IMG/VR virus record: IMGVR_UViG_3300046010_002884
Location: 1-33,837 of that record
Length of the DNA: 33,837 nucleotides
Reading direction: 5' to 3' (one strand)
From: a virus
The notes under the pieces were generated by a model that was not told the origin of the DNA, ran no database searches, and was given only the letters and a program-made list of their open reading frames with translations. Position 1 is the first letter of the stretch; the number at the start of each line of letters is the position of its first letter. The position numbers and the translations under genes are program-made. Positions 1-33,837 of the stretch are shown in pieces.

Positions 1-259
1 TCATGACAACATAATCATCCGCATTGCTGCCGAATTTGCTTGCAACGACCTCCAGTACCTTGTATTCCTCATCGCCCCATCCAAGGTCGCTCTCGTCATC
101 TTCCTCACCCCACCACGGTTCGGTAGGGTTGCTGAACTTCTGCTCCTGAACTCCGAGCAAGGTGTTCACTTCTTCGGGGGTTAAGCCAAATCCAGCGGAC
201 AACATGGTGCGGGCCATCTCCAAGGTAATCTTTTCCTGTGCATAGTGCCGCACGATTCG
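1..259. repeat. Left copy of imperfect terminal overlap
   Basis: These 259 bases match 33579-33837 with no gaps and 11 substitutions (positions 1, 14, 17, 95, 98, 107, 125, 160, 167, 250 and 254). The segment lies inside the portal gene. Eight substitutions are synonymous, two change Asp to Glu in an acidic patch, and one falls in the codon cut by the window edge. It shows that the two ends of the sequence close on each other. The differences look like natural strain variation, not read errors. Confidence 0.9.
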
Positions 260-1561
260 CATCAAGTTTTGGTATTCCCTGCCCGACAATTTCTTGATGT
301 TGTCGTTGCTCATCACCGCTGGTGCTTGCGGTTGCTCATCAGGTTGCGGATTCGGTCCAACCACATCGGCGGGTTGCTTTTCCAAAGGAGGAAGGCCTGC
401 TTTCTCACGCAATTCTTCGGGGGTCATGATGGTCAGCAGGGCTTGTTCGGATAATCGTTCCGTAATCGGCTCAACGGGTATCAATTCGATTCCTTCCACA
501 CCGTTGAACGACGCCAAGTAGTTTATCATTCGCTCTACCTTCCGCACACGGTCGTTCACATACGTTGCCTTAAACAACTCGTAAGCCTCCACCAATTCCT
601 GCCTGCCGCCAAGTTGCCCCTCGGTCTTAACTCCGAACAACATTGGGTTCACAACACGGTGCGAGATGAAGATTTCTTGCTGGATGGCTTTGTTCAAGAT
701 TTCGAACTGCTTGTCCATGTCGGACGGGGTCAGCGGTTCAAGGGTCGGGGCTTTGCTTACGTCATCGTTGAAGGTTACAACGAAGCGGCCAGCATTGTCC
801 GTGCCGCTGAACTTGCGCTTAATCTGCCTCTCAATGTCGCCCTGTTCTTCGGGTGTCGGAATCCCGTTGTTGAAGTTTATGAGATACCCGCCCCAAAAGT
901 TATTGCGGAGGTTGTTGTTGTGGAAGTTCGCCACCTGCACGTCAGCCTCAATCCAAGCCAAGCCGCCCATGTATTCGGGGAGGGGATAGGACTTCACGCC
1001 TGCCGCATACACCCTGTAATAAAACAGTTGCTTGCCGATGCGGTTGTCAGGGTCAAATGCGGGAATTTTCTCGACATCGCCAATCTTGGGGTAGAGTTGC
1101 ACCATGTCGTCGTTGTACCACTCTGCAACCTGAAACATCCGTTCTTCCTTGTCAACCCTGATTTTCTCGAAGGGGATGTGTTCCATCTTCGCAATGGTTC
1201 CCATCTTGTTCCAATGCACGCAGACAGCAAAACCGTTGAATATCTCCAAGTCCAAGACGAGCTTCTCGGTAATGTCATTCAGGTCATCGTGTTCGCTCAA
1301 TCCGTCAAAGAACTTGGCGTAACGTGCCTGCTGCTCAACCGTCATCTTCTCGCCTGCCTGCCATCCACCGCCAACGATGTAGTTCACTTTTCCGTTAACT
1401 ATGGCGTTATGCTTGCTGCTCCTGCGGTAATTGTCAAGGAGATAGTATGGGTACTCGTTGAACGCACCGTAAGTGATGTACTTGCCCGCTTTGTTTTCGA
1501 GCATTACAGGCACTTTGTGTTCTATCCCAAGCCACTGGGTGAAGGATTGCTTTATGCTCAT
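1..1561 (-). CDS. Portal protein, N-terminal part (gene crosses the window edge)
   Basis: The portal forms the dodecameric ring at the capsid vertex through which DNA is packaged. The open frame starts at ATG 1561, overlapping the TGA of the preceding gene (ATGA), and runs off base 1 after 520 codons without a stop. Recognisable portal features are the segment around EKLVLDLEIFNGFAV (residues ~95-110), a stretch rich in Asn and Trp (HNNNLRNNFWGGYL, ~215-230), and FISHRVVNPMLFGVKTEGQLGG followed by a long helix (~290-330). After a Pro/Gln-rich linker comes an acidic C-terminal region. Joined through the terminal overlap to the piece at 33010-33837, the whole protein would have 709 residues, long for a portal. 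It lies downstream of capsid and tail genes, whereas most phages put it next to the terminase. The family assignment is from sequence pattern and context. Confidence 0.85.
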   Translation of the reverse strand, partial: MSIKQSFTQWLGIEHKVPVMLENKAGKYITYGAFNEYPYYLLDNYRRSSKHNAIVNGKVNYIVGGGWQAGEKMTVEQQARYAKFFDGLSEHDDLNDITEKLVLDLEIFNGFAVCVHWNKMGTIAKMEHIPFEKIRVDKEERMFQVAEWYNDDMVQLYPKIGDVEKIPAFDPDNRIGKQLFYYRVYAAGVKSYPLPEYMGGLAWIEADVQVANFHNNNLRNNFWGGYLINFNNGIPTPEEQGDIERQIKRKFSGTDNAGRFVVTFNDDVSKAPTLEPLTPSDMDKQFEILNKAIQQEIFISHRVVNPMLFGVKTEGQLGGRQELVEAYELFKATYVNDRVRKVERMINYLASFNGVEGIELIPVEPITERLSEQALLTIMTPEELREKAGLPPLEKQPADVVGPNPQPDEQPQAPAVMSNDNIKKLSGREYQNLMRIVRHYAQEKITLEMARTMLSAGFGLTPEEVNTLLGVQEQKFSNPTEPWWGEEDDESDLGWGDEEYKVLEVVASKFGSNADDYVVM

Positions 1562-2112
1562 AGCGTATGGGCGGTAAAGGTGAGGGCCGAAATTGTGATG
1601 GCAGAGGCACTATTCATGGCGTTGATGTAGATGGTAAACTCGTCATTAACCGCACCTTGCAGCACCGTTTCGGTGAAGACCGCATGGCCGTTGTCGTGCG
1701 ATAGCGTAAGGTCAGCCATGGACTGGGCAATGATTGTGCTATTCTTAGCGATGTAGATTTTCACCTGATTGCCATTGCCTTGGGATAGCACCATGTTGAC
1801 CGATACTCGAAGCATGGCACTCGTTGTGCCTGTGTAGGTGAGGGAGGTTGTTGTACGGCTAAAGTTGTAGGTGCTGAGTACTCCCAACTTCATTGCGGCA
1901 GTCAGTTTGACGGCCTGCCCCTGCGTTGGTGTCCAGTTGGTTGCTTGGTCCAAGTACAGGTTTCCAACGCCACGCTCTCGGTCAAGGGTTGCGGTATCGG
2001 CAAGGTCGTCGAATAGACCACCCACACGGGCGGCGGTGTTCGCCCCTGCGACGGTTTCGTTGGTGATGGTTGCGGCACTTGCCTGCAACTGGGTGCGAGT
2101 TTGTACGCTCAT
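1558..2112 (-). CDS. Virion structural protein, probably tail or fibre associated
   Basis: A 184-residue protein. The N-terminus has a helical, Ala/Thr-rich segment (SAATITNETVAGANTAARVG, residues ~12-31), a pattern I associate with phage tail and fibre proteins. The C-terminal ~110 residues look beta-rich, alternating hydrophobic and Ser/Thr/Asn residues without charged clusters, as in trimeric head or fibre domains. No catalytic motif is visible. Start and stop overlap the neighbouring genes by four bases on both sides (2109-2112 and 1558-1561), placing it in one translationally coupled string ending with the portal. A capsid decoration role is equally possible. Confidence 0.6.
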   Translation of the reverse strand: MSVQTRTQLQASAATITNETVAGANTAARVGGLFDDLADTATLDRERGVGNLYLDQATNWTPTQGQAVKLTAAMKLGVLSTYNFSRTTTSLTYTGTTSAMLRVSVNMVLSQGNGNQVKIYIAKNSTIIAQSMADLTLSHDNGHAVFTETVLQGAVNDEFTIYINAMNSASAITISALTFTAHTL

Positions 2113-2507
2113 GCGAAGGATGGGTCAAAGGTTGAATCGAATACCCTGACGGCACTCGCCGCATAGGGTTGGTAGGTGATGGTATTGGCGTAGGTGTTGA
2201 ATGTCAGCGAAACTACCTGTACATACGCCAAGCCTGTTTCAACCACCGCAACGGCTGCTGCAACCGTGCTATTGGTATCGTAAACTTCATACTTATACGA
2301 GCCTGTTTCAAGCGACCCCACGGCAAGCGAAAATTTGTCATAGCGGTTGGTGTATGAAGAAAGGTTGGCCGATTTCAGCAGAGTGAAGTCGGTGCTGACG
2401 TTCTTGGCGATGTTGGTCAGCCGCAAGATATAGCGGTCGCCCGAAGATGCCCGTTGCGTCCAAGTGACGACAATCGTGTTCGTGGTGTTTGGGGATAGGT
2501 ATATCAT
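2109..2507 (-). CDS. Small beta-rich virion protein
   Basis: 132 residues when started at ATG 2507 (MIYLSPNTTNTIVVTW). A longer frame open to 2618 would overlap the glycosyltransferase gene, and its extra residues look like non-coding translation. The start lies eight bases after a TACATTTG box (2516-2523), which supports this choice. The sequence is a run of short beta-strand-like segments (RYILRLTN, FSLAVGSLETGSYKYEVYD) resembling an Ig-like or fibronectin-like fold. It is commonly seen in Bacteroidetes phage structural modules, but I cannot name a family with certainty. It overlaps the next gene by four bases. Confidence 0.6.
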   Translation of the reverse strand: MIYLSPNTTNTIVVTWTQRASSGDRYILRLTNIAKNVSTDFTLLKSANLSSYTNRYDKFSLAVGSLETGSYKYEVYDTNSTVAAAVAVVETGLAYVQVVSLTFNTYANTITYQPYAASAVRVFDSTFDPSFA

Positions 2508-2515
2508 CCTATTCC

Positions 2516-2523
2516 CAAATGTA
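2516..2523 (-). promoter_or_regulatory. TACATTTG box, putative -7 element
   Basis: The minus strand reads TACATTTG, fitting the Bacteroidetes -7 consensus TAnnTTTG, eight bases before ATG 2507. It lies just downstream of the glycosyltransferase stop (2539). No clear -33 TTG was found at the expected distance, so it is a candidate only. Confidence 0.4.
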
Positions 2524-2538
2524 GTTTGCGCCCGAATT

Positions 2539-3612
2539 TCACAATTTGCGCCCGATACTTCGGTACAGTTCGGCTCTGCGCTCTGCCGTCTTGCTGATGT
2601 CAAACCGCTCCCGCACATCCTTGCTCAACTGCACGGCCAGCGAGCGAGCGTAATCGGGTTCATTGATGAACTTCCGCACTGCCTTGTACCAAGCGTCTTT
2701 CTTGCCGTAGGGGATGACCAAGCCGTTGTGTCCGTGGACGAGAATGTCGGTGTAGGGGATGGTTTCGGATGCTATTATCGCCTTGCCCATCCATCCTGCC
2801 TCGACTACCTTCAACTCCGATTTAAGGCGGTTGAACTTGGTATCTCGCAGGGGTGCAATCGTTGCGTTGATGAAGTTGTAGCCACCGACATAGGAGTAGA
2901 TGTCAGCGGCTTGGATCCTGCCGTAGTTCGCATTCTTGCCGTTGCAGGATAGCATCCGCTCGTAGTCCACATAGACGGGGTTCTCGTTCCATCCTCCGAG
3001 GTAAATCTTGTACTTGCCATCCAGCGACTTGTCATGGGCAAGCAAGCCGAAGGAATGCTCCACCAGAGCAATATCCTCCTGATGCTGCGCCCCGCCGAAC
3101 CAGCCAATCTTGAACTTATCTTTCTCAGGCTCTTCGTCAGGATTGGCCTGATACTGCTGATACGCTTCGTACGGCTCATTCGGCAGGATGGTCACGTTCT
3201 TGTTCAGCAGGCGAATCTTTTGGGCCAAGTGTTCGGTGGTCGTGGTCACATGGTCAGCCAAGCGGATATGCTCACGAATCTGCTCATCCAATTTCGTGGA
3301 CAAATAGTGGCGGTACATGATGTGGCCGCTCTCCAGCACCCAGTAGTCATCCAAGTCCAAGATTACCTTCGCTCCAAACGCCGTTAGAGCCTTGTACACG
3401 CCACGAATTTGTTCGAGAGTACCTTGACACCAAAGACGATTGAAAAGCCAAATATCGACCGTCTTTAGGTCTTCATCGTTGACGTTGGCGATGTTGTCCA
3501 CGCACACATAGTCAAACTCCGTGTAGTTGTCGCCAAGGTAGGCATTGGGCATTTCCAACCGATAAAAGGAACACCCTGTTGGATGAGCGTTGTAAACGAT
3601 GCAGATTCTCAT
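2539..3612 (-). CDS. Glycosyltransferase, GT-B fold (GT4-like)
   Basis: 357 residues, a usual length for a single GT-B glycosyltransferase. The N-terminal half begins MRICIVYNAHPTGCSFYRL, a nucleotide-fold strand with the sugar-acceptor pocket, and carries VILDLDDYW (~95). The C-terminal half has IGWFGGAQHQ (~168), a typical start of the donor-binding domain, and KVVEAGWMGKAIIASETIPY plus GHNGLVI (~270-295), the E-x7-E-type donor-binding region of GT4 enzymes. It would transfer a sugar from a nucleotide donor, perhaps to a virion protein or to host surface glycan. It sits inside the structural operon with its own terminator and promoter box just upstream, so it may be expressed differently from the capsid genes. 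The stop region contains a direct repeat of TCGGGCGCAAA (2526-2536 and 2546-2556). Confidence 0.8.
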   Translation of the reverse strand: MRICIVYNAHPTGCSFYRLEMPNAYLGDNYTEFDYVCVDNIANVNDEDLKTVDIWLFNRLWCQGTLEQIRGVYKALTAFGAKVILDLDDYWVLESGHIMYRHYLSTKLDEQIREHIRLADHVTTTTEHLAQKIRLLNKNVTILPNEPYEAYQQYQANPDEEPEKDKFKIGWFGGAQHQEDIALVEHSFGLLAHDKSLDGKYKIYLGGWNENPVYVDYERMLSCNGKNANYGRIQAADIYSYVGGYNFINATIAPLRDTKFNRLKSELKVVEAGWMGKAIIASETIPYTDILVHGHNGLVIPYGKKDAWYKAVRKFINEPDYARSLAVQLSKDVRERFDISKTAERRAELYRSIGRKL

Positions 3613-3616
3613 GGCG

Positions 3617-3624
3617 TAAAGATA
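3617..3624 (-). promoter_or_regulatory. TATCTTTA box before a near-leaderless start
   Basis: The minus strand reads TATCTTTA-CGCC-ATG, so the box ends only four bases before the glycosyltransferase start codon. A transcript beginning about seven bases after such a -7 box would start at or next to the ATG. Similar arrangements occur before the genes starting at 12426, 15084, 19211 and 27554. Confidence 0.45.
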
Positions 3625-3657
3625 AAAACAAAAGGGCCACCCCTTTCGAGATGGCCC
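3624..3657 (-). terminator. Rho-independent terminator after the tail-tube-like gene
   Basis: On the minus strand GGGCCATC (3657-3650) pairs with GGTGGCCC (3641-3634), an 8-bp stem with one G-U pair and an 8-base loop. It is followed by TTTTGTTTTT. It lies between the stop of the 3705-4235 gene and the glycosyltransferase start and would separate capsid-level transcription from the glycosyltransferase. Confidence 0.65.
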
Positions 3658-3704
3658 AGTCCACTAAACCAAAGCGGGGTATGAGGCCCGCAGGTCAAAG
3701 ATAC

Positions 3705-4235
3705 TTACGAACCGCTGATTTGTTGCGCAGCGGCGGAGAATGTTGTGCTTTGGATGAGCAACATCGGGTTTGTTTCCATGCCCGACAAGGTCATCTCGTA
3801 GCCGCTCCTGTCACCGAATGCAGTACCAGTTCCAGCAGTTCCCGCAGTTGACTCCAATCCGTTGTCAGCACCGAGCAACCAATAGCGGCTGTTGTTGTCT
3901 TGGACGATGACAATCACACGGTTGCGAGCCAAGAGGCGCAGTTCATTGCGGACGGCAACCTGCAGCTTGTTGATGGTGAAGGTAACCTCAGGAGTGTAGA
4001 ACAGGGTTCCGTTCTCTACTGATGCGTTGAGCGTTTCGGTCATGGACGAAGTGGCTTTGGTCAGGTCGTATTGGAAGAATGAGCCTGATGCGTAGCCTGT
4101 AAAGCCAGTCACCGTTCCGCTGCCGTTGGTGTTCACGGAGCCTGTGGTGTTGAAGGCTTGGACATAAATTGCTTTGATGCCGCCAATAGAATCTCGGCAT
4201 CCGAGGGCGTACCCTGTAGTGAGCGAACAAGACAT
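3705..4235 (-). CDS. Putative major tail tube (or head decoration) protein
   Basis: 176 residues directly after the major capsid gene. It starts MSCSLTTGYALGCRDSIGGI and contains TFTINKLQVAVRNELRLLARNRVIVIVQDNN (~96-126) and YWLLGADNGLE followed by Gly/Thr-rich turns. I associate this layout with small abundant virion proteins of Bacteroidetes phages, often called tail tube. The beta-rich content and position after the capsid gene fit an abundant structural part, but a head-decoration protein is possible. A promoter-like TATCTTTG (3696-3703) and a terminator (3624-3657) follow it. Confidence 0.55.
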   Translation of the reverse strand: MSCSLTTGYALGCRDSIGGIKAIYVQAFNTTGSVNTNGSGTVTGFTGYASGSFFQYDLTKATSSMTETLNASVENGTLFYTPEVTFTINKLQVAVRNELRLLARNRVIVIVQDNNSRYWLLGADNGLESTAGTAGTGTAFGDRSGYEMTLSGMETNPMLLIQSTTFSAAAQQISGS

Positions 4236-14998: not shown

Positions 14999-15084
14999 AG
15001 CGAAGCGATTGCAAAAAGCAAGACCAATAAGAGAGCGAATCTGCCAAAAATCAAAAGCAAATCAAGGAAGGATTCGAGGTTCAT
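14995..15084 (-). CDS. Small membrane peptide
   Basis: 29 residues (MNLESFLDLLLIFGRFALLL, then VLLFAIASL). The chain is almost one hydrophobic helix with a short acidic N-terminus. It is linked by ATGA overlap to the 14998 gene and preceded by a TAACTTTA box five bases before its ATG, which supports it as a real gene. The function is not recognisable; a short hydrophobic peptide could assist lysis, anchor the glycan enzymes at the membrane, or mainly provide translational coupling. Confidence 0.5.
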   Translation of the reverse strand: MNLESFLDLLLIFGRFALLLVLLFAIASL

Positions 15085-15089
15085 GGCGG

Positions 15090-15097
15090 TAAAGTTA
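15090..15097 (-). promoter_or_regulatory. TAACTTTA box overlapping the terminase stop
   Basis: The minus strand reads TAACTTTA-CCGCC-ATG at 15084; the TAA is also the stop codon of the large terminase. It is the same box-plus-ATG arrangement as at 3612, 12426, 19211 and 27554 and could start a transcript for the glycan cluster. Confidence 0.4.
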
Positions 15098-16291
15098 CAC
15101 CACAACATACTTTCCCGAATTGCTTACCCTCAACTTGTTGAGAGCCACATATCGCATAGCATCGCAGGCGTGGTTGAACGAGTCAATCGGGACCCCTGTG
15201 TTTTTGCCCTCCTTGTCGGTCGCCCAAGTATAGGACCGTAGTTCTTTGATGAGGTTGGTGCTATCCTTGGTAACCTGCAACTTGTAGCGTTTCAGGATGT
15301 CAATGCCGTTCCTGACCGAATCGGGGCCTTTCTCCGCCGGCTTGATGTTGAAACCTAACCGATAGATTTCTTCAATGCTCTTGGGTTCGGCTGAATCCGC
15401 CACGATTTCCCAAGCCCTTGTGATGCCGAGCGACCGCAACTTGTCTGCGATGTCTTGGTTCGTGAGGCCCGTAGCGTAGAGCAGTTCTTGAATCAGCAGG
15501 CAGTCCCCTTGGCGGTAGATAGCGACCAAGGCCGTAGGGTCGTTGCTGAACCCCCAGTCAAGCCCCAAGGCGACGAATTTCGCTCGGCTGACATCTATAC
15601 CCTCCACGACCTCAAAGTCCTCGTATATCGCACCCTGAAGCGTCCCGACCTGACCGAGGCCGTAGACCTTGTACCAGTTTGCCCAATACTCCGAAGTTTC
15701 GGCCTTGAGCCTCGCTTTCTCGATGAAGTCCCTCGCACTCTTGGGGCAGGCTTCGTTGTCCTTGTAGGTTAGAATAAGGAAGTCCACGTCCTCATCGTGC
15801 ATCAGTTCGGAGTGAAACCAAAACCCATTGACCGGGTTCCAGTCAAGGATGACCGATTGCTTGGTTCGTGCAGCCAATTCCGTGTAAGCGTGGAAGGATA
15901 GGTTGTTCGCCTCGTTCATGTAGAGCCTGTCCCTCCTTGCACCCCTTAACTTGGAATCATCGTCAGCCGAAAAGAACTCGATGTAAGAGCCGTTAGCGAA
16001 CTTGTACCGAAAGTCGGTGGCGTTCCATCGGGCAGCATTGAACCGCCCTGTAACGGTCATTATCTTCATGAAGTCCCTCATGGCCCCACGCTTGAGGTGT
16101 GGGATGGATTCGGCTACAACGCTCGTTTCCGTGTAGGGATTCTTCGTGCAATAGTCGATTTCAACGGCAAGGATGGAGTACGTCTTGGACGCACTGGAAC
16201 CGCCTTGTACCCCTTTGACGAACCGCTTTAACTCACGGACCTTATTTACGGCCGTGGTTCGGATGAACTTCTCTTGCTCTTTTAACGGCAT
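15095..16291 (-). CDS. terL: Terminase large subunit
   Basis: The packaging motor ATPase and nuclease. 398 residues, a normal length. Walker A is GGSSASKT (~31-38), the Walker B-like element is RDRLYMNEANN (with the catalytic Glu, ~120-130), and the coupling region is IILDWNPVNGFW-like (SVILDWNPVNG, ~145). The RNase H-type nuclease begins ALGLDWGFSNDPTALVAIY (~235-253, first metal Asp), continues with EIVADSAEPKSIEEI (~293-307) and closes with DSFNHACDAMRY near the C-terminus, carrying the last Asp. It overlaps the small terminase by one base. A GC-poor, Thr-rich region is absent; composition resembles its neighbours. Confidence 0.93.
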   Translation of the reverse strand: MPLKEQEKFIRTTAVNKVRELKRFVKGVQGGSSASKTYSILAVEIDYCTKNPYTETSVVAESIPHLKRGAMRDFMKIMTVTGRFNAARWNATDFRYKFANGSYIEFFSADDDSKLRGARRDRLYMNEANNLSFHAYTELAARTKQSVILDWNPVNGFWFHSELMHDEDVDFLILTYKDNEACPKSARDFIEKARLKAETSEYWANWYKVYGLGQVGTLQGAIYEDFEVVEGIDVSRAKFVALGLDWGFSNDPTALVAIYRQGDCLLIQELLYATGLTNQDIADKLRSLGITRAWEIVADSAEPKSIEEIYRLGFNIKPAEKGPDSVRNGIDILKRYKLQVTKDSTNLIKELRSYTWATDKEGKNTGVPIDSFNHACDAMRYVALNKLRVSNSGKYVVV

Positions 16292-16713
16292 CAGTCATTG
16301 TCGGGGAATAGGGGTTGCTCGATGTGGACCGTGTTCTCTTGGCGTTCCACAAGGTTGTTCAAGCGTTGAGTGATGGATGGGTTGTACTGACCGACCATGC
16401 CTCCCTCGATTTGGTCTTGACGAATGGTCCGCCTTATGCGTGAACAGATGGCTGAATACTCGGAGTAGTTGCCCTTTGTGTTCCCAAAATAATCCCCTAA
16501 GTCCTGAACGATACCTGCATCCGCACACCAGTTCTCAAAGCCTTCCAAGGTCAGCGGTCGCTCTAAGGGTTCGTACTGGGGGATAGCATCCTTGCCGGGA
16601 AATACGGTCTTGGTCCTTGGGTTGTTCTTGACCTCTGCCCGGTATGCCTCAAAATACTCCCACATCTTTTCGGGGGTTTCAATGTACTTGCCGTGTCCCT
16701 TGCTGGTTCCCAT
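16291..16713 (-). CDS. terS: Terminase small subunit
   Basis: 140 residues, helical and DNA-binding, immediately before terL. The N-terminus has a GHGKYIETPEKMWEYFEAYR helix, then PLTLEGFENWCADAGIVQDLGDYF (~74-97), a turn-helix pattern of the small packaging subunit, and a C-terminal helix with NLVERQENTVHIEQPLF. It recognises phage DNA and recruits the large subunit. The start ATG overlaps the stop of the preceding 62-residue protein. The assignment is strengthened by direct adjacency and translational coupling to terL. Confidence 0.8.
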   Translation of the reverse strand: MGTSKGHGKYIETPEKMWEYFEAYRAEVKNNPRTKTVFPGKDAIPQYEPLERPLTLEGFENWCADAGIVQDLGDYFGNTKGNYSEYSAICSRIRRTIRQDQIEGGMVGQYNPSITQRLNNLVERQENTVHIEQPLFPDND

Positions 16714-16901
16714 CAGTATTCGATTTTATCAATCAGTTCGTCAATCTTGTCCACTATCTTCATCTTTACCGCAAATGCGTTGGGGGCATTGGAATCGTCC
16801 ACCGCTCCGATGCAGTCGCACAGGGTCGTAATGACCATCATCAGCGAGTCCATCCGAGCCTGCACTTGGGCTTCGTCATCCTTCGCCTTGGGGGTTGACA
16901 T
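16713..16901 (-). CDS. Small helical protein upstream of terS
   Basis: 62 residues (starting MSTPKAKDDEAQVQARMDSL). The chain looks fully helical with a heptad-like hydrophobic pattern (MDSLMMVITTLCDCIGAV and MKIVDKIDELIDKIEY) and could form a small coiled-coil dimer. It overlaps the previous gene by 26 bases and the terminase small subunit by one base. No function is recognised; the position suggests a packaging accessory. Confidence 0.55.
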   Translation of the reverse strand: MSTPKAKDDEAQVQARMDSLMMVITTLCDCIGAVDDSNAPNAFAVKMKIVDKIDELIDKIEY

Positions 16902-17145
16902 TCAGTGGGTATGTTATGGTGTTTTGATTGACTTCGAGAAACAGGTCCGCCTGTTCGTAAATGTAGGAGAGGGCAGATTTTACGCAGTCCGCGCACCACC
17001 AATTCGTGTTCGGTCGGCCGTGTGCTACAAGGATGGTTTGCAGGTCGCCAACCGCTTCGGGGGATAGCCTCATATACAGGTGAGCTTGGTATTGCTCCCA
17101 GTAATGGCGATGCTTTTGAGCCAACAGGTATTCGTCTTGGGTCAT
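16876..17145 (-). CDS. Unknown protein with one CxxC motif
   Basis: 89 residues. The N-terminal half is helical with many Tyr/His residues (HRHYWEQYQAHLYMRLSPEAVG), the middle has a WWCADCVKS motif (~49-57) that could bind metal as half of a zinc site, and the C-terminus is Asn/Pro-rich. It overlaps the methyltransferase stop by four bases and the next gene by 26. I do not recognise the family, but the translational coupling and clean codon pattern support a real gene. Confidence 0.6.
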   Translation of the reverse strand: MTQDEYLLAQKHRHYWEQYQAHLYMRLSPEAVGDLQTILVAHGRPNTNWWCADCVKSALSYIYEQADLFLEVNQNTITYPLNVNPQGEG

Positions 17146-18440
17146 AGAAGGGTCAGTTGCTTTGGTTGCTCCTGTACTTGTTTGGAGCGTGCCTGAATGC
17201 GTTTCTCGGATATAGCGATGTACTCAGCCTCCCGTTCTATCCCGACAAACGCAAAGCCTTCCAGCATCGCCGCCTTGCCTGTTGAGCCTGAACCCATGAA
17301 TGGGTCGAGGACGATTCCGTTGGGTGGGGTTACAAGTCGGCAGAGGTAACGCATGAGGTCGGTGGGCTTGACGGTTGGGTGGTGGTTTTCGCCTCTATCC
17401 GCTTTGCTTGCTTTGGCGCAGTAGAAGAAGCGGGCCGAATCTTTGAGCAGGTCGGTGGCTTCCTCGCTCCCATCGTGGATGAAGTTGGCGGGCCAGCGGC
17501 CAGCGGGTAGTGCCTTTTCGCCTTTTGGATAAAAATAATCCCCATAAGCATTTATGCTTCCGTTTTTTATGCCCGTAAATTGTTCCTTTTCTCGTTCCCC
17601 CACCCTACACCTATCCACATTAATCGCTCCCGTCCCGTGTTGCAGGACGTTCTCGGCTACCGTGCCAATCAAGGGCTTTCGAGCCACCGTAATCGGTTCA
17701 AGTGCTGGTTTGAGTGCAGTCCCCCAGCCTTGCCATTGCTTTGCTTCGGGGGTGGCGGCTATTGTGATGTCTATTGAGCGATTTATAGAAATGTTTGCCC
17801 CTTGTATTGAGGCTATACCGTTTTTATATCCTCCAGCCGTTCCTTCTTCACCGTTTATTATTTTCTGCCCAACCACCTTCCGCTCGGCTTCAATGCGTTC
17901 AACTAAGTCATCAACCCATTCAGGAACCTGACCGCACAAAGGCCGCAACTTTTCCCAAAGTTTTCTTGTTGGTATTGCTGGCTGACTTTTGGCCGTTAAA
18001 TAGTGGCCGCCCATATTGGTTCCTGTCGCTTGGTCAATTTGTTTAGATGTTAACCCTGTGGTTCGCATCCATTCGGTAAATCGCAAAAGCCTACCAACCT
18101 CTCCGTTGTTTTTATCAATCGCCTTGCTCACATCCAGCGACTTCGGGAATCCCGACCCGTACACCCACGCAATCATATCCCGAATCTCAAAGCCTGCATC
18201 CTCAATCCTTACCGCCATGCGGTGCTGCGTCCTCGTCCCCGCAAAGGCCAGCAGATGACCCCCAGGCTTCAAGACCCGAAGGCACTCCACCCATACATCA
18301 ACGCTTGGCACATCGTAGTCCCACTTCTTGCCCATGAAGGACAAGCCATATGGCGGGTCGGTAACGATTGAATCCACGCTGCAATCAGGCATGGACCGCA
18401 ATACCTCAAGGCAGTCGCCGTGATGCAGTTGGTAGGTCAT
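17142..18440 (-). CDS. DNA methyltransferase, beta-class DPPY type
   Basis: 432 residues from ATG 18440. An upstream extension to 18611 exists but would overlap the membrane-protein gene, and its Cys/Arg-rich sequence looks non-coding. The chosen ATG overlaps the previous stop as ATGA. Motif IV is DPPYGL (~29-34), followed by a long variable region (~100-330) and, near the C-terminus, LDPFMGSGSTG, the SAM-binding motif I. The order IV, target region, I is that of beta-class N6-adenine or N4-cytosine methyltransferases. With HPTVKP and no restriction partner beside it, it looks like an orphan enzyme protecting phage DNA from host restriction. Confidence 0.85.
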   Translation of the reverse strand: MTYQLHHGDCLEVLRSMPDCSVDSIVTDPPYGLSFMGKKWDYDVPSVDVWVECLRVLKPGGHLLAFAGTRTQHRMAVRIEDAGFEIRDMIAWVYGSGFPKSLDVSKAIDKNNGEVGRLLRFTEWMRTTGLTSKQIDQATGTNMGGHYLTAKSQPAIPTRKLWEKLRPLCGQVPEWVDDLVERIEAERKVVGQKIINGEEGTAGGYKNGIASIQGANISINRSIDITIAATPEAKQWQGWGTALKPALEPITVARKPLIGTVAENVLQHGTGAINVDRCRVGEREKEQFTGIKNGSINAYGDYFYPKGEKALPAGRWPANFIHDGSEEATDLLKDSARFFYCAKASKADRGENHHPTVKPTDLMRYLCRLVTPPNGIVLDPFMGSGSTGKAAMLEGFAFVGIEREAEYIAISEKRIQARSKQVQEQPKQLTLL

Positions 18441-18688
18441 CGGTTGGTCAGTTGCAGGATGACAACGGTAAGCCCTGCCGAGGCAAGACCGTACACAGGC
18501 GCAAGCATCCAGTCGCAGGTCAGCAGGGTGAGTGAAGCCCCAAGCCAAAACGATAGGCAGGTGATGCAGCTGAACGGCTTGTGCCTGCCGAGCCAAGTGC
18601 GATACCACCAAGCGGGCAGGACGTGGTACTCGGCAATGGCAAGAGCGGCAAGGCTACTGACGAGGAGCGGGAATATCAGTACGTCCAT
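18437..18688 (-). CDS. Small membrane protein with a CxxC motif
   Basis: 83 residues with three hydrophobic stretches: ~1-20 (IFPLLVSSLAALAIAEY), ~42-57 (SFWLGASLTLLTC) and ~62-80 (LAPVYGLASAGLTVVIL). The second is preceded by FSCITCLSFW, a Cys-x-x-Cys. It overlaps the sigma-like gene by 35 bases and the methyltransferase by four. Proteins of this form recur in Bacteroidetes phages in my memory. The role is unknown; a second holin or a superinfection-exclusion protein are possibilities. Confidence 0.6.
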   Translation of the reverse strand: MDVLIFPLLVSSLAALAIAEYHVLPAWWYRTWLGRHKPFSCITCLSFWLGASLTLLTCDWMLAPVYGLASAGLTVVILQLTNR

Positions 18689-23288: not shown

Positions 23289-23812
23289 AATTTTCTTGCA
23301 ATTACGCAATCTTCGGGGATTTCGCTAAATTTCATAAACATAAACGATTCTTGACTTCGCTCTATTCCTTTTCTATGCCTCCACGGTAATTCATGCTTAT
23401 TTGAATAAATTTTTAACTGCAACAAATCCAATAGTACATAACTTATTATTTCCCCATTGCTAGCTTCGCCGCAGAAATAAAGTTGCGATGTGCAATAGTA
23501 CCATGCCCCCTTTTTTCCTGACCTTTTTTCGGTTTCAAAGGTTACAGTATGAAAGCCTTTAAAAAGGCATTTTTCTTGGAGCGTCAATCTGCTACCGTCC
23601 TTAAGGGTTAAAATCATGTCAATGCCTTCGGTGGCATCATACCTGCCTTTTAATTCATCACGACTCACTTCCGTCGTTTTTTCACCATCAGCAAGAGGCA
23701 GAATTTCCCTGTAAATATTATTAATTAACTGAATATATTTACCCGCTTTATCGCTTCTTTCTTTTAAATAATCGTTTACATCAATTATTTTAATCCTTTC
23801 TATACCAACCAT
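23285..23812 (-). CDS. Putative PD-(D/E)XK endonuclease, partner of the ParB-methyltransferase
   Basis: 175 residues from ATG 23812, overlapping the methyltransferase end by 13 bases; the extra in-frame ATG at 23860 lies well inside that gene and is less likely. The middle reads YDATEGIDMILTLKDGSRLTLQEKCL (~57-82 from this start): G-I-D followed by ten or more residues and Q-E-K matches the PD-(D/E)XK nuclease pattern (Asp, then x-E-x-K). Downstream it has GAWYYCTSQLYFCGEAS. The gene is AT-rich like its methyltransferase partner, unlike the flanking replication genes. The likely role is restriction of DNA lacking the partner's methylation; an alternative is degradation of host DNA. Confidence 0.5.
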   Translation of the reverse strand: MVGIERIKIIDVNDYLKERSDKAGKYIQLINNIYREILPLADGEKTTEVSRDELKGRYDATEGIDMILTLKDGSRLTLQEKCLFKGFHTVTFETEKRSGKKGAWYYCTSQLYFCGEASNGEIISYVLLDLLQLKIYSNKHELPWRHRKGIERSQESFMFMKFSEIPEDCVIARKL

Positions 23813-25098
23813 GGCGTTATTTTTGTAAGTTCCTGGAATCGTGATAGGATGATATTGCAATAGGCTGGGTCAACTTCATAAGCAATGCAAGTTCTTCCCG
23901 TGTTTTCCGCTGCAAGTAAGGTTGTCCCAGAGCCACAAAACGGGTCGCATATCGTTTCTTTTTCTTTGGTTGTTTTCTTGATTATTTCCTCCATTAACAC
24001 GATTGGTTTTTGTGTTGGATGAAACCTTTTCTGGTTATTACCGTGAATGCTATCAGCGTTAACAACGCCGCCATGCAGAACCCTTACCATAATTGAGGAC
24101 TTTTTTGTTGCCGCACTCTTGAACCATGCAAGTTCAAATGGGCTTCCAATCATGTCGTCAAGTTCGTCTTTTAAACGCTTATCCCAGCAAAGCCATCCAC
24201 CTGTGGGCAAGTGTCTTGTGAAATAATTGGCCCCAAATAAAACAACCGTATCTCGATTTAAAAACGGCCTTGGGTCAAATTCCTCGGCATCTCCTTCTAT
24301 CTTTTTAAAATCGCTTTCGGTTCCATCCCACTTCTTCCAGTCGGGATTATAGTCAATGCCATAAGGTGGGTCGGTGATAATAGCGGTCGCTTCATTCTTA
24401 AGAAAATCGTATGCACTTGCACAGGTTAATGTGTGCTTTCCAAGAATCCATACTTGACCAAATTGAACATTAAATTTTTCTGTTATTTCCTCCTGTTTAT
24501 TGGCTTCAATTATTTCTCGGCTTTTACGATTTTGTAATATTTCTGCTTTCTCCTGCTTTTTAATCTCCTGATATGCTTGGTTAATACTGACCTCGCCAGT
24601 GCGTAGTTGCTGCTTAACATCATCGGTAGCCTTGGCTTGAAGAACCTTGACCTTGGCGATGGTGTCATGGCTGACGTTGGCAATCTTAGCAAGTTCTTTT
24701 CTTGTTTCAATAGGCTTGTAACTTTCCGCAGATTTCTGCGGAATGTCTATTCTTGTGCCTTGATTTGCCTTGGCCTTATCTCTAATTACTTGCTCCAATT
24801 CCAAAGCCAAGACGCTGCGTTGAAATGCTTGCAGGTTACGCCTGCCAAACTGGTTAAGAATCATCCACTCCTTGCACTCATTAAGGTCGGTAAATTGCAT
24901 CGCCTTGGTTGTAAATGGTATGCCAAATTCCTGTGCAATGGAATAGCGGTTGTGTCCATCCACAATTGTTCCATCCCAAGTCAGGATAGCTTCACGGATG
25001 CCTTCCGATAGAATGTTGTTGGTTAGTTGCTGATATTCTAACGAGGTTAGCGGAGGTATCAGTGATTGGAGTTCGGGGTTGATGTTGAGTTTTTGCAT
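23800..25098 (-). CDS. ParB-domain / DNA methyltransferase fusion
   Basis: 432 residues. The N-terminal ParB/Sulfiredoxin-like domain is visible in LTSLEYQQLTNNILSEGIREAILTWDGTIVDGHNRYSIAQEF (~17-60). Next comes a helical KorB-like region with a helix-turn-helix (ELAKIANVSHDTIAKVKVL, ~137-155) and a linker coiled coil. The methyltransferase has motif IV ITDPPYGIDY (~240-250) and, near the C-terminus, CDPFCGSGTTLLAA (motif I). The order IV then I makes it beta-class. ParB-methyltransferase fusions are common on mobile elements and usually provide DNA modification. Low GC relative to neighbours suggests recent acquisition. A terminator lies directly before it. Confidence 0.85.
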   Translation of the reverse strand: MQKLNINPELQSLIPPLTSLEYQQLTNNILSEGIREAILTWDGTIVDGHNRYSIAQEFGIPFTTKAMQFTDLNECKEWMILNQFGRRNLQAFQRSVLALELEQVIRDKAKANQGTRIDIPQKSAESYKPIETRKELAKIANVSHDTIAKVKVLQAKATDDVKQQLRTGEVSINQAYQEIKKQEKAEILQNRKSREIIEANKQEEITEKFNVQFGQVWILGKHTLTCASAYDFLKNEATAIITDPPYGIDYNPDWKKWDGTESDFKKIEGDAEEFDPRPFLNRDTVVLFGANYFTRHLPTGGWLCWDKRLKDELDDMIGSPFELAWFKSAATKKSSIMVRVLHGGVVNADSIHGNNQKRFHPTQKPIVLMEEIIKKTTKEKETICDPFCGSGTTLLAAENTGRTCIAYEVDPAYCNIILSRFQELTKITPWLV

Positions 25099-29624: not shown

Positions 29625-29848
29625 GCCTTGGGAACTTCGGTAGGCTTGTTGTACTTGGTCACCAGCATCCATCCTGTTGACACCAGCGTAATGATTGCCC
29701 CGATGATTTCGGTAAGTGCTGCGGAATCAAGGATGCCTTTGGCTACGAGAGTGCCACCGATGAAGGTAAGTAGATGGCGAAGGAGAGCGATGACTGCTGA
29801 TTGCATAAGGTTGGGTTGCTCGGGGTTACGCTTGCGGAATAGTCGCAT
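29621..29848 (-). CDS. Putative holin (Pam3-gp28-like)
   Basis: 75 residues from ATG 29848; the longer frame to 29953 is rejected because it lies over the previous gene. A basic N-terminus (MRLFRKRNPEQPNL) precedes two hydrophobic stretches: SAVIALLRHLLTFIGGTLVAKGIL (~17-40) and IIGAIITLVSTGWMLVTKY (~48-66), with a short charged tail. The R-H-x-L-T-x-x-G-G-x-L-V-A-K-G pattern matches, from memory, a family of small phage holins. It would permeabilise the inner membrane and release the amidase encoded on the other strand. Confidence 0.7.
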   Translation of the reverse strand: MRLFRKRNPEQPNLMQSAVIALLRHLLTFIGGTLVAKGILDSAALTEIIGAIITLVSTGWMLVTKYNKPTEVPKA

Positions 29849-29859
29849 AATGGTAGATG

Positions 29860-30126
29860 TTACAGGGTTGAAGGTGTTGCAAATTCTTGGTAGTCGGCGG
29901 CGTATTGCGCATCCCAACCGAGGAAAGAATGCACACCGCAGGGCTTGGGCCAAACGATGTATGGCGTGAACGCCGCAGGGGGTGTGTCGTTGAATAGGAT
30001 GTCATAGCATACGAGGCCGTCAAGTTCACCAAGCGGCACGGCGTTGTCCAAGGGTTGCAGGGATTCTTGCAGCACCTTGTCTGCGGTGGCTTGGCTTGGG
30101 AATGCGTACTTGCGAAAGGTAGCCAT
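29860..30126 (-). CDS. Small unknown protein after the fibre gene
   Basis: 88 residues from ATG 30126, which shares one base with the fibre gene stop (TAATG); longer frames to 30204 run inside the fibre gene. The sequence (MATFRKYAFPSQATADKVLQ at the start, VCYDILFNDTPPAAFTPYIVWPKPCGVHSFLGWD in the middle) is rich in aromatic residues and Pro. Such short genes between a fibre and a holin are often fibre chaperones or small tail parts; I cannot decide. It is translationally coupled to the fibre. Confidence 0.55.
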   Translation of the reverse strand: MATFRKYAFPSQATADKVLQESLQPLDNAVPLGELDGLVCYDILFNDTPPAAFTPYIVWPKPCGVHSFLGWDAQYAADYQEFATPSTL

Positions 30127-31409
30127 TAGGTTGTAAGGGCTTGGAGTTGATCGTTTGTGAGCCTTGTCGTGTAGAGAGCAACGGCACGGATGCGGGCATT
30201 CCAAAAAGAACTAGATGTTGCGGTTGTCTCGATTTTTCCGATGTTTATGTCGGTCAAAGATGCAGGGAAAGCAGCACTTGTCCCTGATACTACTGCGCCT
30301 CCATCTAAACTTGCGAATAAAGTACCGCTGACACCGCTTTGCTGATACGCAAAGGCGACTTTATGATAACCAGCAGCAGGGTCGCCAAGAGATATACTGG
30401 TTCCTTGAATTTGAGCCCTTAATGCATTACTCGTATAATAAAGAAAAACCCTATTTGCTTGAGTCCCATCGCTCAGAGCAAAAAGCCTTCTCGTTGTTGT
30501 GTCGCTTCGTATCTCAAACTCCGCATAAATCGTCCCCTCCGTCTGCCCGATACATCCGCTGACTGCGCCTGATAGGTTTATCACGTCTGCGTTGCGTGTT
30601 GCGCTTGTAGTTGTTGTTGGGATGTAGGAGGTGGCGACGGAGCCTGTTTCTATTTGCGCTCCAAAGACATTGACGGTATTTCCATTGTCCGATTGAACAA
30701 TAGCACTACTCATTGTTCCGTTGCTCGTATTTACTCGTATGTTGCCTGCAACCGTTGAGCCAAGCAAAACACGCATGGAGCAGCGATACCATCCATTGCC
30801 GTAATTTTCTATATTATGCGCTTGCAAGGTGTAACCGCTTCCAACGCTTCCACTTACCGAAAATGCCCCAGTTGAAAGATTCCAAATAACTGCAACGCCA
30901 CTTGCAACGCCTCCGTTCTCCATCGTCATCCCAAAGAACCCGCTACCCGCTTTTGCAAAGCAAGAATAGGTGTAGGTTGTACCGCTCACAAAACTAAAGG
31001 TCTGAACGACTCTCGCTGAACCGCTTGCAGTTGCGGTCAATAAGTCCGCAAGATTTGTGCCAAAAGGGTCGGTGGTTCCTGTAACATTTGCCGAAACCGT
31101 TACATTAGTGGGCGACCAAGTTGTCGTAAAGTCCTGACTCTGCAAAGCGGAGTTCGACCCACTCGGCTCAACGAGCAACGCAGGGCAGCCAGCCGTTCCT
31201 CCGCTGGTGTAGTAGTCCAACCTCGGAATCCCCGAAGCGACAACCTCAATCAACCCACTCGCATTCACCCTTGTTGCCGTAGTCGCACGAGTGACATTGA
31301 AGTCGCCCGATGCACCCAGCACCGTGCCTCCCGATGTGGTCGCCAAAGGTGTGTACAGCTTGCCTGTCTTAAACCGAGCAGGCACTATTATCAGCGATGG
31401 TGTCGGCAT
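30126..31409 (-). CDS. Tail fibre / lectin-domain protein, receptor-binding candidate
   Basis: 427 residues from ATG 31409 (MPTPSLIIVPARFKTGKLYT). Region ~100-260 follows the carbohydrate-binding layout known from phage fibres: ALQSQDFTTTWSPTNVTVSAN, then SGTTYTYSCFAKAG, GNGWYRCSMRVLLG, VNVFGAQIETGSVATSYIPT. Region ~270-427 looks like a LamG/concanavalin-type lectin domain (GTIYAEFEIRSDTTTRRLFALSDG, YHKVAFAYQQSGVSGTLFASLDG, WNARIRAVALYTTRLTNDQL). It would recognise a host glycan. Low charge and Ser/Thr richness fit a secreted-type beta protein. It is flanked by structural and lysis genes. Confidence 0.75.
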   Translation of the reverse strand: MPTPSLIIVPARFKTGKLYTPLATTSGGTVLGASGDFNVTRATTATRVNASGLIEVVASGIPRLDYYTSGGTAGCPALLVEPSGSNSALQSQDFTTTWSPTNVTVSANVTGTTDPFGTNLADLLTATASGSARVVQTFSFVSGTTYTYSCFAKAGSGFFGMTMENGGVASGVAVIWNLSTGAFSVSGSVGSGYTLQAHNIENYGNGWYRCSMRVLLGSTVAGNIRVNTSNGTMSSAIVQSDNGNTVNVFGAQIETGSVATSYIPTTTTSATRNADVINLSGAVSGCIGQTEGTIYAEFEIRSDTTTRRLFALSDGTQANRVFLYYTSNALRAQIQGTSISLGDPAAGYHKVAFAYQQSGVSGTLFASLDGGAVVSGTSAAFPASLTDINIGKIETTATSSSFWNARIRAVALYTTRLTNDQLQALTT

Positions 31410-31411
31410 TG

Positions 31412-31582
31412 TTAGAAGTTGTAGATTGCAGCAAAGCGGTTGAACAGGCAACCATCAACGGCAGCCTCGGCAGCAGTCGCACCATCAGCAGTCGCCCTTG
31501 CGTTGAACGCTGCCCATAGCCCAGCAGCAACTCCGCCTTGGAGCATATTGGTCGGGTAGCCGTAGCCGTAGCCGATTAGCAT
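31412..31582 (-). CDS. 56-residue protein, virion module, unknown
   Basis: A short frame from ATG 31582, overlapping the previous stop (TAATG), to TAA 31412. It starts MLIGYGYGYPTNMLQGGV and continues with an Ala-rich helix (AAFNARATADGATAAEAAVDG), ending in FNRFAAIYNF. The aromatic Gly/Tyr start and coupling on both sides (three bases to the fibre gene) support expression. It might be a fibre or connector accessory; no family is recognised. Confidence 0.55.
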   Translation of the reverse strand: MLIGYGYGYPTNMLQGGVAAGLWAAFNARATADGATAAEAAVDGCLFNRFAAIYNF

Positions 31583-31857
31583 TACAGGAAGGTGTAACCG
31601 ATGACGCTTCCCACGGATGGAGTAACGGCCGTAATCTTGCCGCCGTTCCTGCCGCTGATGACGATGCCAGCTGAAACGGATTTGCCGCTCAATAGGTAGG
31701 CAGTCAGCAGGTTCTCGCCACCTGTACCCGTCAAGGTCGTGAAGGTTGCAGCAGCGTTGACCACGATGAAGTCGAAGTTTGCACCGCTAACGGCTGCGTC
31801 AATGAATTGCATCGAACCACCTTGGCCGAGCATTTGTTGTAGAATTGGAGTAGGCAT
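31582..31857 (-). CDS. Small virion protein, unknown
   Basis: 91 residues (MPTPILQQMLGQGGSMQFID at the start). A short helix is followed by beta-rich, Ala/Thr/Gly/Val-dominated sequence (FDFIVVNAAATFTTLTGTGG, then SAGIVISGRNGGKITAVTPSVGSVIGY). This composition fits a small trimeric or decoration protein. It starts 18 bases after a TACATTTA box with the leader AACAACCCAAGCA. Position between connector genes and fibre suggests a structural part. Confidence 0.6.
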   Translation of the reverse strand: MPTPILQQMLGQGGSMQFIDAAVSGANFDFIVVNAAATFTTLTGTGGENLLTAYLLSGKSVSAGIVISGRNGGKITAVTPSVGSVIGYTFL

Positions 31858-31875
31858 TGCTTGGGTTGTTTACTG

Positions 31876-31883
31876 TAAATGTA
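31876..31883 (-). promoter_or_regulatory. TACATTTA box before the small virion protein
   Basis: The minus strand reads TACATTTA, 18 bases before ATG 31857. It resembles the other recurrent boxes but with a real leader between. It could start a transcript for the fibre-lysis segment. Confidence 0.35.
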
Positions 31884-31885
31884 TT

Positions 31886-32389
31886 TTAAGTCGGAATTTC
31901 ACAAACGGAGTGCGAGTACGGTATCTGAAACTGGAGCGTAGCCTGCCACCCCGCCGTGCGGTCGTCACGGCTCTCTACAAACCTCGTTAATGACACGGAG
32001 GTACTTAGCGTCCATTCTTGCGTTGGGTCGTTTGTAAGGGCTGAAATGAAGTCCTGAGCGATTTGCAGTTGGTCGCTCAAAACCTCATCCTCATTGTCCT
32101 GCCAACCCAGCGTCGGGCTGCCCGAAACCACGCCACCCATCGGGGCAATGGATTCCACCCTGTCGCTGAAATAGACACCGACCACAAGAGCCAAAGAACC
32201 CAAGTCCGTAGTCGCTGACTGCACATCCGCAAACACCAACGGATAGACGATTCGCTCACGGCTTGGGGTTCGCAGGTTGATGGTGTTGTCCGTTCCGATT
32301 GCAAGCGGGTCGCCCGTCCCGAAGGAGTTCACCTGCGGGTGACTGTTTGCAAGGTTCAGGAGTGCTTGCTTGATTTTTATCCAAGACAT
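31886..32389 (-). CDS. Head-tail connector / tail completion candidate
   Basis: 167 residues. The N-terminus MSWIKIKQALLNLANSHPQVNSFG is a helix that often starts neck proteins. The middle has RIVYPLVFADVQSATTDLGSLALVVGVYFSD (~46-76), and the end LQFQIPYSHSVCEIPT is a beta strand. The sequence layout (YPLVF plus a long central beta domain) resembles minor virion proteins of Bacteroidetes phages located between portal and fibre genes. An exact equivalent is not certain. No enzyme motif is present. Confidence 0.55.
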   Translation of the reverse strand: MSWIKIKQALLNLANSHPQVNSFGTGDPLAIGTDNTINLRTPSRERIVYPLVFADVQSATTDLGSLALVVGVYFSDRVESIAPMGGVVSGSPTLGWQDNEDEVLSDQLQIAQDFISALTNDPTQEWTLSTSVSLTRFVESRDDRTAGWQATLQFQIPYSHSVCEIPT

Positions 32390-32431
32390 ATTTTTGGAGT
32401 TTCAAAATGTTTTTTGCGTGTGCGCCCATAG

Positions 32432-33013
32432 TTAGCAGTTATTGCAGTAAGGGTCGTAGCCGTAAGGCCAAGGGCGGTCCAATCCAGCACCACGGCGCAG
32501 GGTTCTTGCATCCAAGGCCATGCCTGTATTGTAATTCGTGCCGTTCGGGTATATCGTGTCCAAAGCCGAAGGAGGGGAGTTGAACAGGGGGTAGTCGGTG
32601 CGGTTCTCCATCAGGTAGCGGGTAATTCTCTCCGAGTACCATTCCGCATCGTTCTTGACTTTATCCGTGAGCCTTGTAATCTCGTCCATGCTCATCTGCG
32701 AAGATTCCTCGCTGGTACGGCGAACCATGCCTTTGTTCATGTACTTGAAGGCAAGCACCATGGGTAACTCGTAGTAAAGCCATTGCACCATTGCTGGTTG
32801 GATGTAGTCCTCCAAGAGCGTGGTGTTGAGTGCCGTAGTCGTACCGCTGACCACTTGGCTCACCATTTCCGAGTACAGGGCCGATCCGACTATTGGTTGG
32901 ATCCTCATCTCCTGCACCTTCACGATGGTAGGCCGTATCTGCGTGAACGATACGTTCTCGTTGATTACGCTATTGTCCAAGAGCGTTTGCTCGCTTATGA
33001 ATAGTGCCTTCAT
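32432..33013 (-). CDS. Head-tail connector protein (DUF6712-like)
   Basis: 193 residues. It starts MKALFISEQTLLDNSVINEN, followed by FTQIRPTIVKVQEMRIQPIVGSALYSEM (~24-51), a gp6-like helical layout. MVQWLYYELPMVLAFKYMNKGMVR (~75-98) and a helical middle lead to the Asn/Pro/Cys-rich end (RPWPYGYDPYCNNC). The family is known to me as a Bacteroidetes phage head-tail connector candidate. It is directly coupled to the portal stop (ATGA), as expected for a connector that docks on the portal. Confidence 0.7.
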   Translation of the reverse strand: MKALFISEQTLLDNSVINENVSFTQIRPTIVKVQEMRIQPIVGSALYSEMVSQVVSGTTTALNTTLLEDYIQPAMVQWLYYELPMVLAFKYMNKGMVRRTSEESSQMSMDEITRLTDKVKNDAEWYSERITRYLMENRTDYPLFNSPPSALDTIYPNGTNYNTGMALDARTLRRGAGLDRPWPYGYDPYCNNC

Positions 33014-33837
33014 GCTTTTGTGATTTTATTGCCCTTGCGGATGACGATTTGCTGCTCCCATACGTGCCTGCATTGAGGGCGATTCACTCCGCTGGCGGTG
33101 TGGTACCAGCCGCCTCTGCGATTCCAAACGGAGTAGCCCATGATGCTGGAAATACCGTTGATGTCGTCACGGGTGTAAACCTTGCCTTGGTCAGCGAGGT
33201 CCATCATGACTTTGCAAAATTCACGGCTTGTGCGCTTGTCCTTATCGCTAAACCCTGCGGCCCATGCGTATTTGTAGCGGACTTCCAGTACAGGTTCGGC
33301 CACTTCCTTCACACCTTTGGGCAGGTTTTTCTCAACGATTTGGTCGGCCGCCCTTGCAATGGGGTAGCGGTCTTTGGTCATAAGGTACGCAATCCGCTTT
33401 GCGATTTTCGCCTTGCTAACCCCGAACTCCTTGGCCATTTCTTCCACGGATGCGTCACGATTCTTCTTGCGGTAGGCTACAATCTTTGAATCCAGTTCTT
33501 TCTCTTCCTCGCCAAGTTCTGCGAAGGCTTGACGCACTTGGTCGTCTAAATCGGAGTCAAACCGCATTGGCTTGCTATGCATGACAACATACTCCTCCGC
33601 ATTGCTGCCGAATTTGCTTGCAACGACCTCCAGTACCTTGTATTCCTCATCGCCCCATCCAAGGTCGCTCTCATCGTCTTCCTCGCCCCACCACGGTTCG
33701 GTCGGGTTGCTGAACTTCTGCTCCTGAACTCCGAGCAGGGTGTTGACTTCTTCGGGGGTTAAGCCAAATCCAGCGGACAACATGGTGCGGGCCATCTCCA
33801 AGGTAATCTTTTCCTGTGCATAGTGCCTCACAATTCG
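33010..33837 (-). CDS. Portal protein, C-terminal part
   Basis: This is the 3' end of the portal gene. Bases 33579-33837 repeat the left-end segment, and 33010-33578 add 189 new residues and the stop. The frame is open to the right edge; a GTG at 33831 can be read as a start but corresponds to an internal Val codon in the left copy. The added region has a helix-turn-helix-like stretch (SVEEMAKEFGVSKAKIAKRI) and ends in a Trp/Cys/His-rich segment (VWNRRGGWYHTASG, then RPQCRHVWEQQIVIRK). From memory, a similar Cys-Arg-His-x-Trp tail occurs at the ends of structural proteins in other Bacteroidetes phages; its job is unknown. The stop overlaps the next start (ATGA at 33013), so the connector gene is translationally coupled. 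Confidence 0.8.
   Translation of the reverse strand, partial: RIVRHYAQEKITLEMARTMLSAGFGLTPEEVNTLLGVQEQKFSNPTEPWWGEEDDESDLGWGDEEYKVLEVVASKFGSNAEEYVVMHSKPMRFDSDLDDQVRQAFAELGEEEKELDSKIVAYRKKNRDASVEEMAKEFGVSKAKIAKRIAYLMTKDRYPIARAADQIVEKNLPKGVKEVAEPVLEVRYKYAWAAGFSDKDKRTSREFCKVMMDLADQGKVYTRDDINGISSIMGYSVWNRRGGWYHTASGVNRPQCRHVWEQQIVIRKGNKITKA
33579..33837. repeat. Right copy of imperfect terminal overlap
   Basis: Second copy of bases 1-259, offset by 33578 and about 96 percent identical. Reading from this copy into base 33578 and below gives the uninterrupted C-terminal end of the portal protein. Reading from base 1561 down into the left copy gives its N-terminal end. The two copies therefore represent the same place on one circular or circularly permuted genome. 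Confidence 0.9.

Follow-up and report, generated by a model that had tools for sequence, protein, structure and literature searches.

The window analysed here is the whole 33,837-nucleotide stretch of the IMG/VR virus record IMGVR_UViG_3300046010_002884, the two ends of which are closely similar without being identical. Such an arrangement raises the question of whether the virus carries a divergent repeat at the two ends of a linear genome, or whether a circle-mapping genome was left open by the assembler. From the comparisons described below, we conclude with high confidence that the window represents the full, circle-mapping genome of a tailed phage, that its ends come from different variants and that the assembler could not close it in a mixed population.

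The window encodes a portal protein, a large terminase, a tape-measure-like protein, a DnaB-like helicase, DNA methyltransferases and other proteins, nearly all on the minus strand. Two DNA methyltransferase genes lie at 17142-18611 and 23800-25098, the second of which also encodes an N-terminal ParB-like nuclease part. Cultured phages are related only distantly, the nearest being those of Nonlabens/Persicivirga and Flavobacterium: the portal is 30% identical over residues 18-336 to that of Nonlabens phages P12024S/L, and the large terminase is 47% identical over 98% of the query to those of Flavobacterium psychrophilum phages such as Fpv5 and FpV9. No close cultured phage was found in the collection, and species-representative bacterial genomes yielded no relatives of the portal, neither a prophage nor a host being found there. 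Among uncultivated records, G015 (IMGVR_UViG_3300046011_002023) is 100% identical to the window over 7417-29261 (21,845 bp), and G014 and G017 (sample 3300046009) match it at 98.9% and 99.6%, respectively, over the parts that they cover; the same strain is therefore present in more than one public sample.

The two ends carry two versions of the same portal codons

Window bases 1-259 (the LEFT copy) align with bases 33579-33837 (the RIGHT copy) over 259 columns without gaps and with 11 differences (BLASTN E = 1e-120), which confirms the gapless alignment at about 96 percent given by the sequence-only reading. The differing sites, in block numbering, are 1, 14, 17, 95, 98, 107, 125, 160, 167, 250 and 254. 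Both ends are homologous, in equal orientation and in the same gene frame, that of the portal, which is open in both copies (Table 1). A test for an exact end repeat, with a minimum length of 20 bp, was negative.

Table 1. Features of the window that bear on the overlap of its ends
Feature	Position	Strand	Evidence or remark
LEFT copy of the overlap	1..259	-	Portal codons, LEFT haplotype; ungapped alignment to 33579-33837; identical to L005 within 1-397
RIGHT copy of the overlap	33579..33837	-	Same portal codons, RIGHT haplotype; ungapped alignment to 1-259
Stretch identical to L005 (other sample, 3300044970)	1..397		Covers the overlap; probable recombination tract
77 bp identical in both ends	18..94 (also 33596-33672)		L083 has RIGHT alleles before it and LEFT alleles after it
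82 bp identical in both ends	168..249 (also 33746-33827)		Longest exact stretch common to both ends
N-terminal 520 codons of the portal gene, truncated at left contig end	2..1561	-	Open reading frame; PHROG portal families, E 1.7e-36
C-terminal 275 codons of the portal gene, truncated at right contig end	33010..33837	-	Open reading frame; joined translation
Right arm identical to L083 over 3,982 bp	29691..33672		L083 then continues into LEFT alleles, bridging the join

When the ends are joined, the portal frame runs through 709 residues with no internal stop, and the complete portals of relatives measure 701-754 residues (n=58); the complete 709-residue portal proposed earlier is thus upheld. 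Close to the left end, at 308-379, the portal gene contains a variable insert: in L056, L064, L076 and L079 this stretch is longer and of different sequence, and the portals of these four relatives reach 750-754 residues. The C-terminal part of the portal (33010-33837), which lies outside the usual portal domain, gives no match to portals and has only weak matches to an unknown family (E 3e-5) and a sigma-factor family (E 9e-4).

In the minus-strand portal frame, eight of the ten changed full codons are silent and the other two are Asp/Glu exchanges in adjacent codons (NADDYVVM / NAEEYVVM); every other frame is interrupted by stops in the overlap. Random placement of ten substitutions was simulated and is expected to give approximately 7-8 amino-acid changes, with two or fewer found in 0.004-0.12% of simulations, a range set by the transition rate. 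The silent bias claimed from the letters alone, with eight synonymous differences, two Asp/Glu exchanges and one cut codon, is borne out by the same counts. The cut codon, at position 1, reads CAT (His) with the RIGHT base and AAC (Asn) in the LEFT-type relative L005, and would probably constitute a third amino-acid difference. Since about 80 relatives between them show both bases at each of the 11 sites, the differences represent natural alleles; the presence of both alleles at all sites, together with the mostly silent changes, rules out sequencing error as their source.

Relatives carry the block once and a bridging contig crosses the join

Portal relatives were taken from IMG/VR and aligned to the window. 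The 259-bp block is single-copy in all 85 of the 85 related loci, and the alignments of these relatives pass from the left arm via position 1 straight into 33837 and downwards. With identities of 74-92% in relatives, L005 excepted, the block is not specially conserved.

A search with a pattern allowing either allele at the sites retrieved the 4,041-bp contig L083 (IMGVR_UViG_3300044910_000195). This contig has RIGHT alleles only at sites 1, 14 and 17 and LEFT alleles at 95, 98, 107 and 125 (RRR-LLLL), and it therefore represents a third haplotype besides LEFT and RIGHT. By its alleles, L083, which may come from another sample than the window, links the right arm to the left end. Its last 126 bp, up to block position 143, agree exactly with LEFT, a terminal match that would be explained by a de Bruijn path merger at k near 127; the maxK rule of de Bruijn contig ends has been described (PMC10914622). 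L083 is one of four short contigs from other samples that end in the block (L047, L059, L083 and L084, at positions 58, 2, 143 and 155), and these ends possibly mark the same branching point. A pile-up of contig ends at the block was not convincing, with 4 of 121 mapped ends inside it in a sample biased to the portal region.

These alignments bear on the idea that the window is a chimera, in which a conserved portal segment served to join pieces of different phage species and no real circle exists. The group is indeed mosaic, and assemblers can cross genotypes at shared stretches. However, the near-complete relatives align collinearly with the window, both over the join and around the rest of the map, G015 (7417-29261) and L083 (29691-33672) match it at 100%, and the block lacks special conservation. 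We consider a chimera highly improbable for these reasons.

Even less probable is a true divergent direct terminal repeat, for which each linear virion genome would contain both copies, one per end. Its attraction is that the two copies sit at the exact contig ends and differ. Against it, every relative has the block once, inside the portal gene, with sequence continuing onward on either side; the contigs of relatives end elsewhere on the map; L083 leads on from the right arm into the block and takes up LEFT alleles there; and a repeat of this kind would cut the portal gene at both genome ends. A diversity-generating or duplicated portal segment with a varying second copy, suggested by the A found at six of the 11 sites in the LEFT copy, can be set aside almost entirely, as eight silent changes in ten full codons are the opposite of targeted amino-acid diversification and the segment is single-copy in every relative.

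Related genomes also close imperfectly, at other places

The ends of near-complete contigs were compared for the group (n=11, window included). Seven of the 11, including the window, have imperfect end overlaps, one has a perfect overlap and two are short of closing. Besides the window, the inexact overlaps are 1,310 bp at 93% (G001), about 325 bp at 94-97% with a 214-bp length difference (G002), about 590 bp at 83% (G004), 743 bp at 88% (G016), 248 bp at 99.6% with one gap (G018) and about 2,070 bp at 84-88% (G019). The exact overlap measures 119 bp (G020); G003 and G005 have no overlap and are about 118 and 10 bp short of closing, respectively, and comparison of the G021 ends gave no overlap. 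The closing points of the ten closable contigs, the window among them, are spread over the map, and those of the relatives lie elsewhere than the window's. Because related contigs close imperfectly at differing genome positions and the block is single-copy, there is no fixed divergent terminal repeat.

The ends of these contigs also bear the mark of the assembler. In G001, G016, G018 and G019 the overlap starts at the first base with exactly 127 identical bases, while G002 has 126 exact bases at its start and 127 at its end, and G018 has 126 at its end. The repeated lengths of 126-127 bp at the ends of five relatives are assembler k-mers, not biology; a pile-up of end repeats at other values of k has been described by the CheckV authors (PMC8116208). 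A k-mer vertex common to the window's own two ends was looked for and none was found, the longest exact run being 82 bases. Since the ends share no more than these 82 exact bases, an assembler with k near 127 would have been unable to join them directly. A k of 77, considered on account of the 77-bp stretch at 18-94, was dropped, as the ends share 82 bp and were still unjoined, and as the relatives point to 127.

The relatives passing through the join in single copy, the imperfect closure of others elsewhere and the bridging by L083 thus agree with the sequence-only reading of a circular contig assembled from a mixed population, and the genome length that it gave, a circle of 33,578 bp, survives the tests.

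The haplotypes are mosaic

At least three haplotypes exist over the 11 sites, namely LEFT, RIGHT and that of L083. The earlier proposal of two coexisting genotypes was thus right in invoking different variants; the number two is a lower bound, and the variants are mosaic rather than two clean strains. Presumably they co-exist in the window's own sample. At least two genotypes of the portal, 80-91% alike, occur together in 12 samples. The collection was searched by pattern and by protein for another, near-identical contig covering the left arm (1-4053), and none was found.

Over 1-397, L005 is 100% identical to the window, the next best relative 94% and the median relative 81%, whereas the flanks of L005 are only 87% identical over 398-1561 and 82% over 33010-33578. 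Likewise, L014 is identical to the window over 33003-33606 and L016 over 33335-33606. Identical tracts of approximately 270-600 bases between clearly divergent flanks point to recombination, as judged from these alignments. Across the two ends and 22 close relatives, 44 of the 55 pairs that the 11 sites form show all four allele combinations, a count that recurrent mutation can raise.

Mosaicism is also seen away from the portal. The large terminase region (15062-16880) is 92-93% identical to G016 and G023, the other genes of which are about 70-78% identical, and this difference suggests that the large terminase module was recently exchanged. By protein identity, the group's terminases form two sets, at 97-100% and about 77%.

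Discussion

The single copy in relatives, the bridging contig, the imperfect closure elsewhere and the k-mer signature at the relatives' ends were all observed directly, and the following course of events would account for the window. Phage DNA in the sample would be circular, concatemeric or circularly permuted, so that reads would cover a closed map, and several related genotypes would be present in the metagenome. The assembler would have broken the map inside the portal gene, where the genotypes branch, with one contig end taking one haplotype and the opposite end another. As these haplotypes have in common no exact stretch as long as a large k-mer, the ends would stay unmerged, leaving an overlap of 259 bp at 96%. 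The haplotypes themselves are mosaic, the 11 sites occurring in three or more combinations. We infer the window's assembler and k, as well as the form of its packaged DNA, from these patterns; circular, concatemeric and circularly permuted templates would all fit the picture. The left and right arms may stem in part from different genotypes, and the closed sequence may be a population mosaic.

Within-population variation is known to break contigs in de Bruijn assembly, leaving ends with k-mer-sized exact overlaps, as described for COBRA (PMC10914622). The present case resembles the breaks treated there in that circular phage genomes stay unclosed where genotypes branch, with 126-127 bp at the ends of five relatives and at the end of L083. 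It differs in that the window's own ends lack a k-mer-sized exact stretch and instead overlap inexactly, linked by a third haplotype. Similarly, the window is like the direct-terminal-repeat contigs of CheckV (PMC8116208), in which the repeat results from assembly of a circle or concatemer opened at an arbitrary point, but unlike them its repeat is inexact and fails the exact test of at least 20 bp. The end overlap is an ordinary assembly outcome and not a new type of terminal repeat.

Taken together, the results make it very probable that the window holds a complete genome and that the portal gene is intact, a reading that guards against claiming a divergent terminal repeat. An exact end-repeat test misses the inexact overlaps in seven of the 11 near-complete contigs of the group, and complete genomes from diverse populations are likely under-called. 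As for the biology of the group, we lean, with some reservation, towards the view that a recombination tract shows its edge in the overlap: the group, widespread and uncultivated, may so often swap stretches of a few hundred bases in the portal and neighbouring genes that co-existing genotypes would be patchworks and most of its genomes would close imperfectly.
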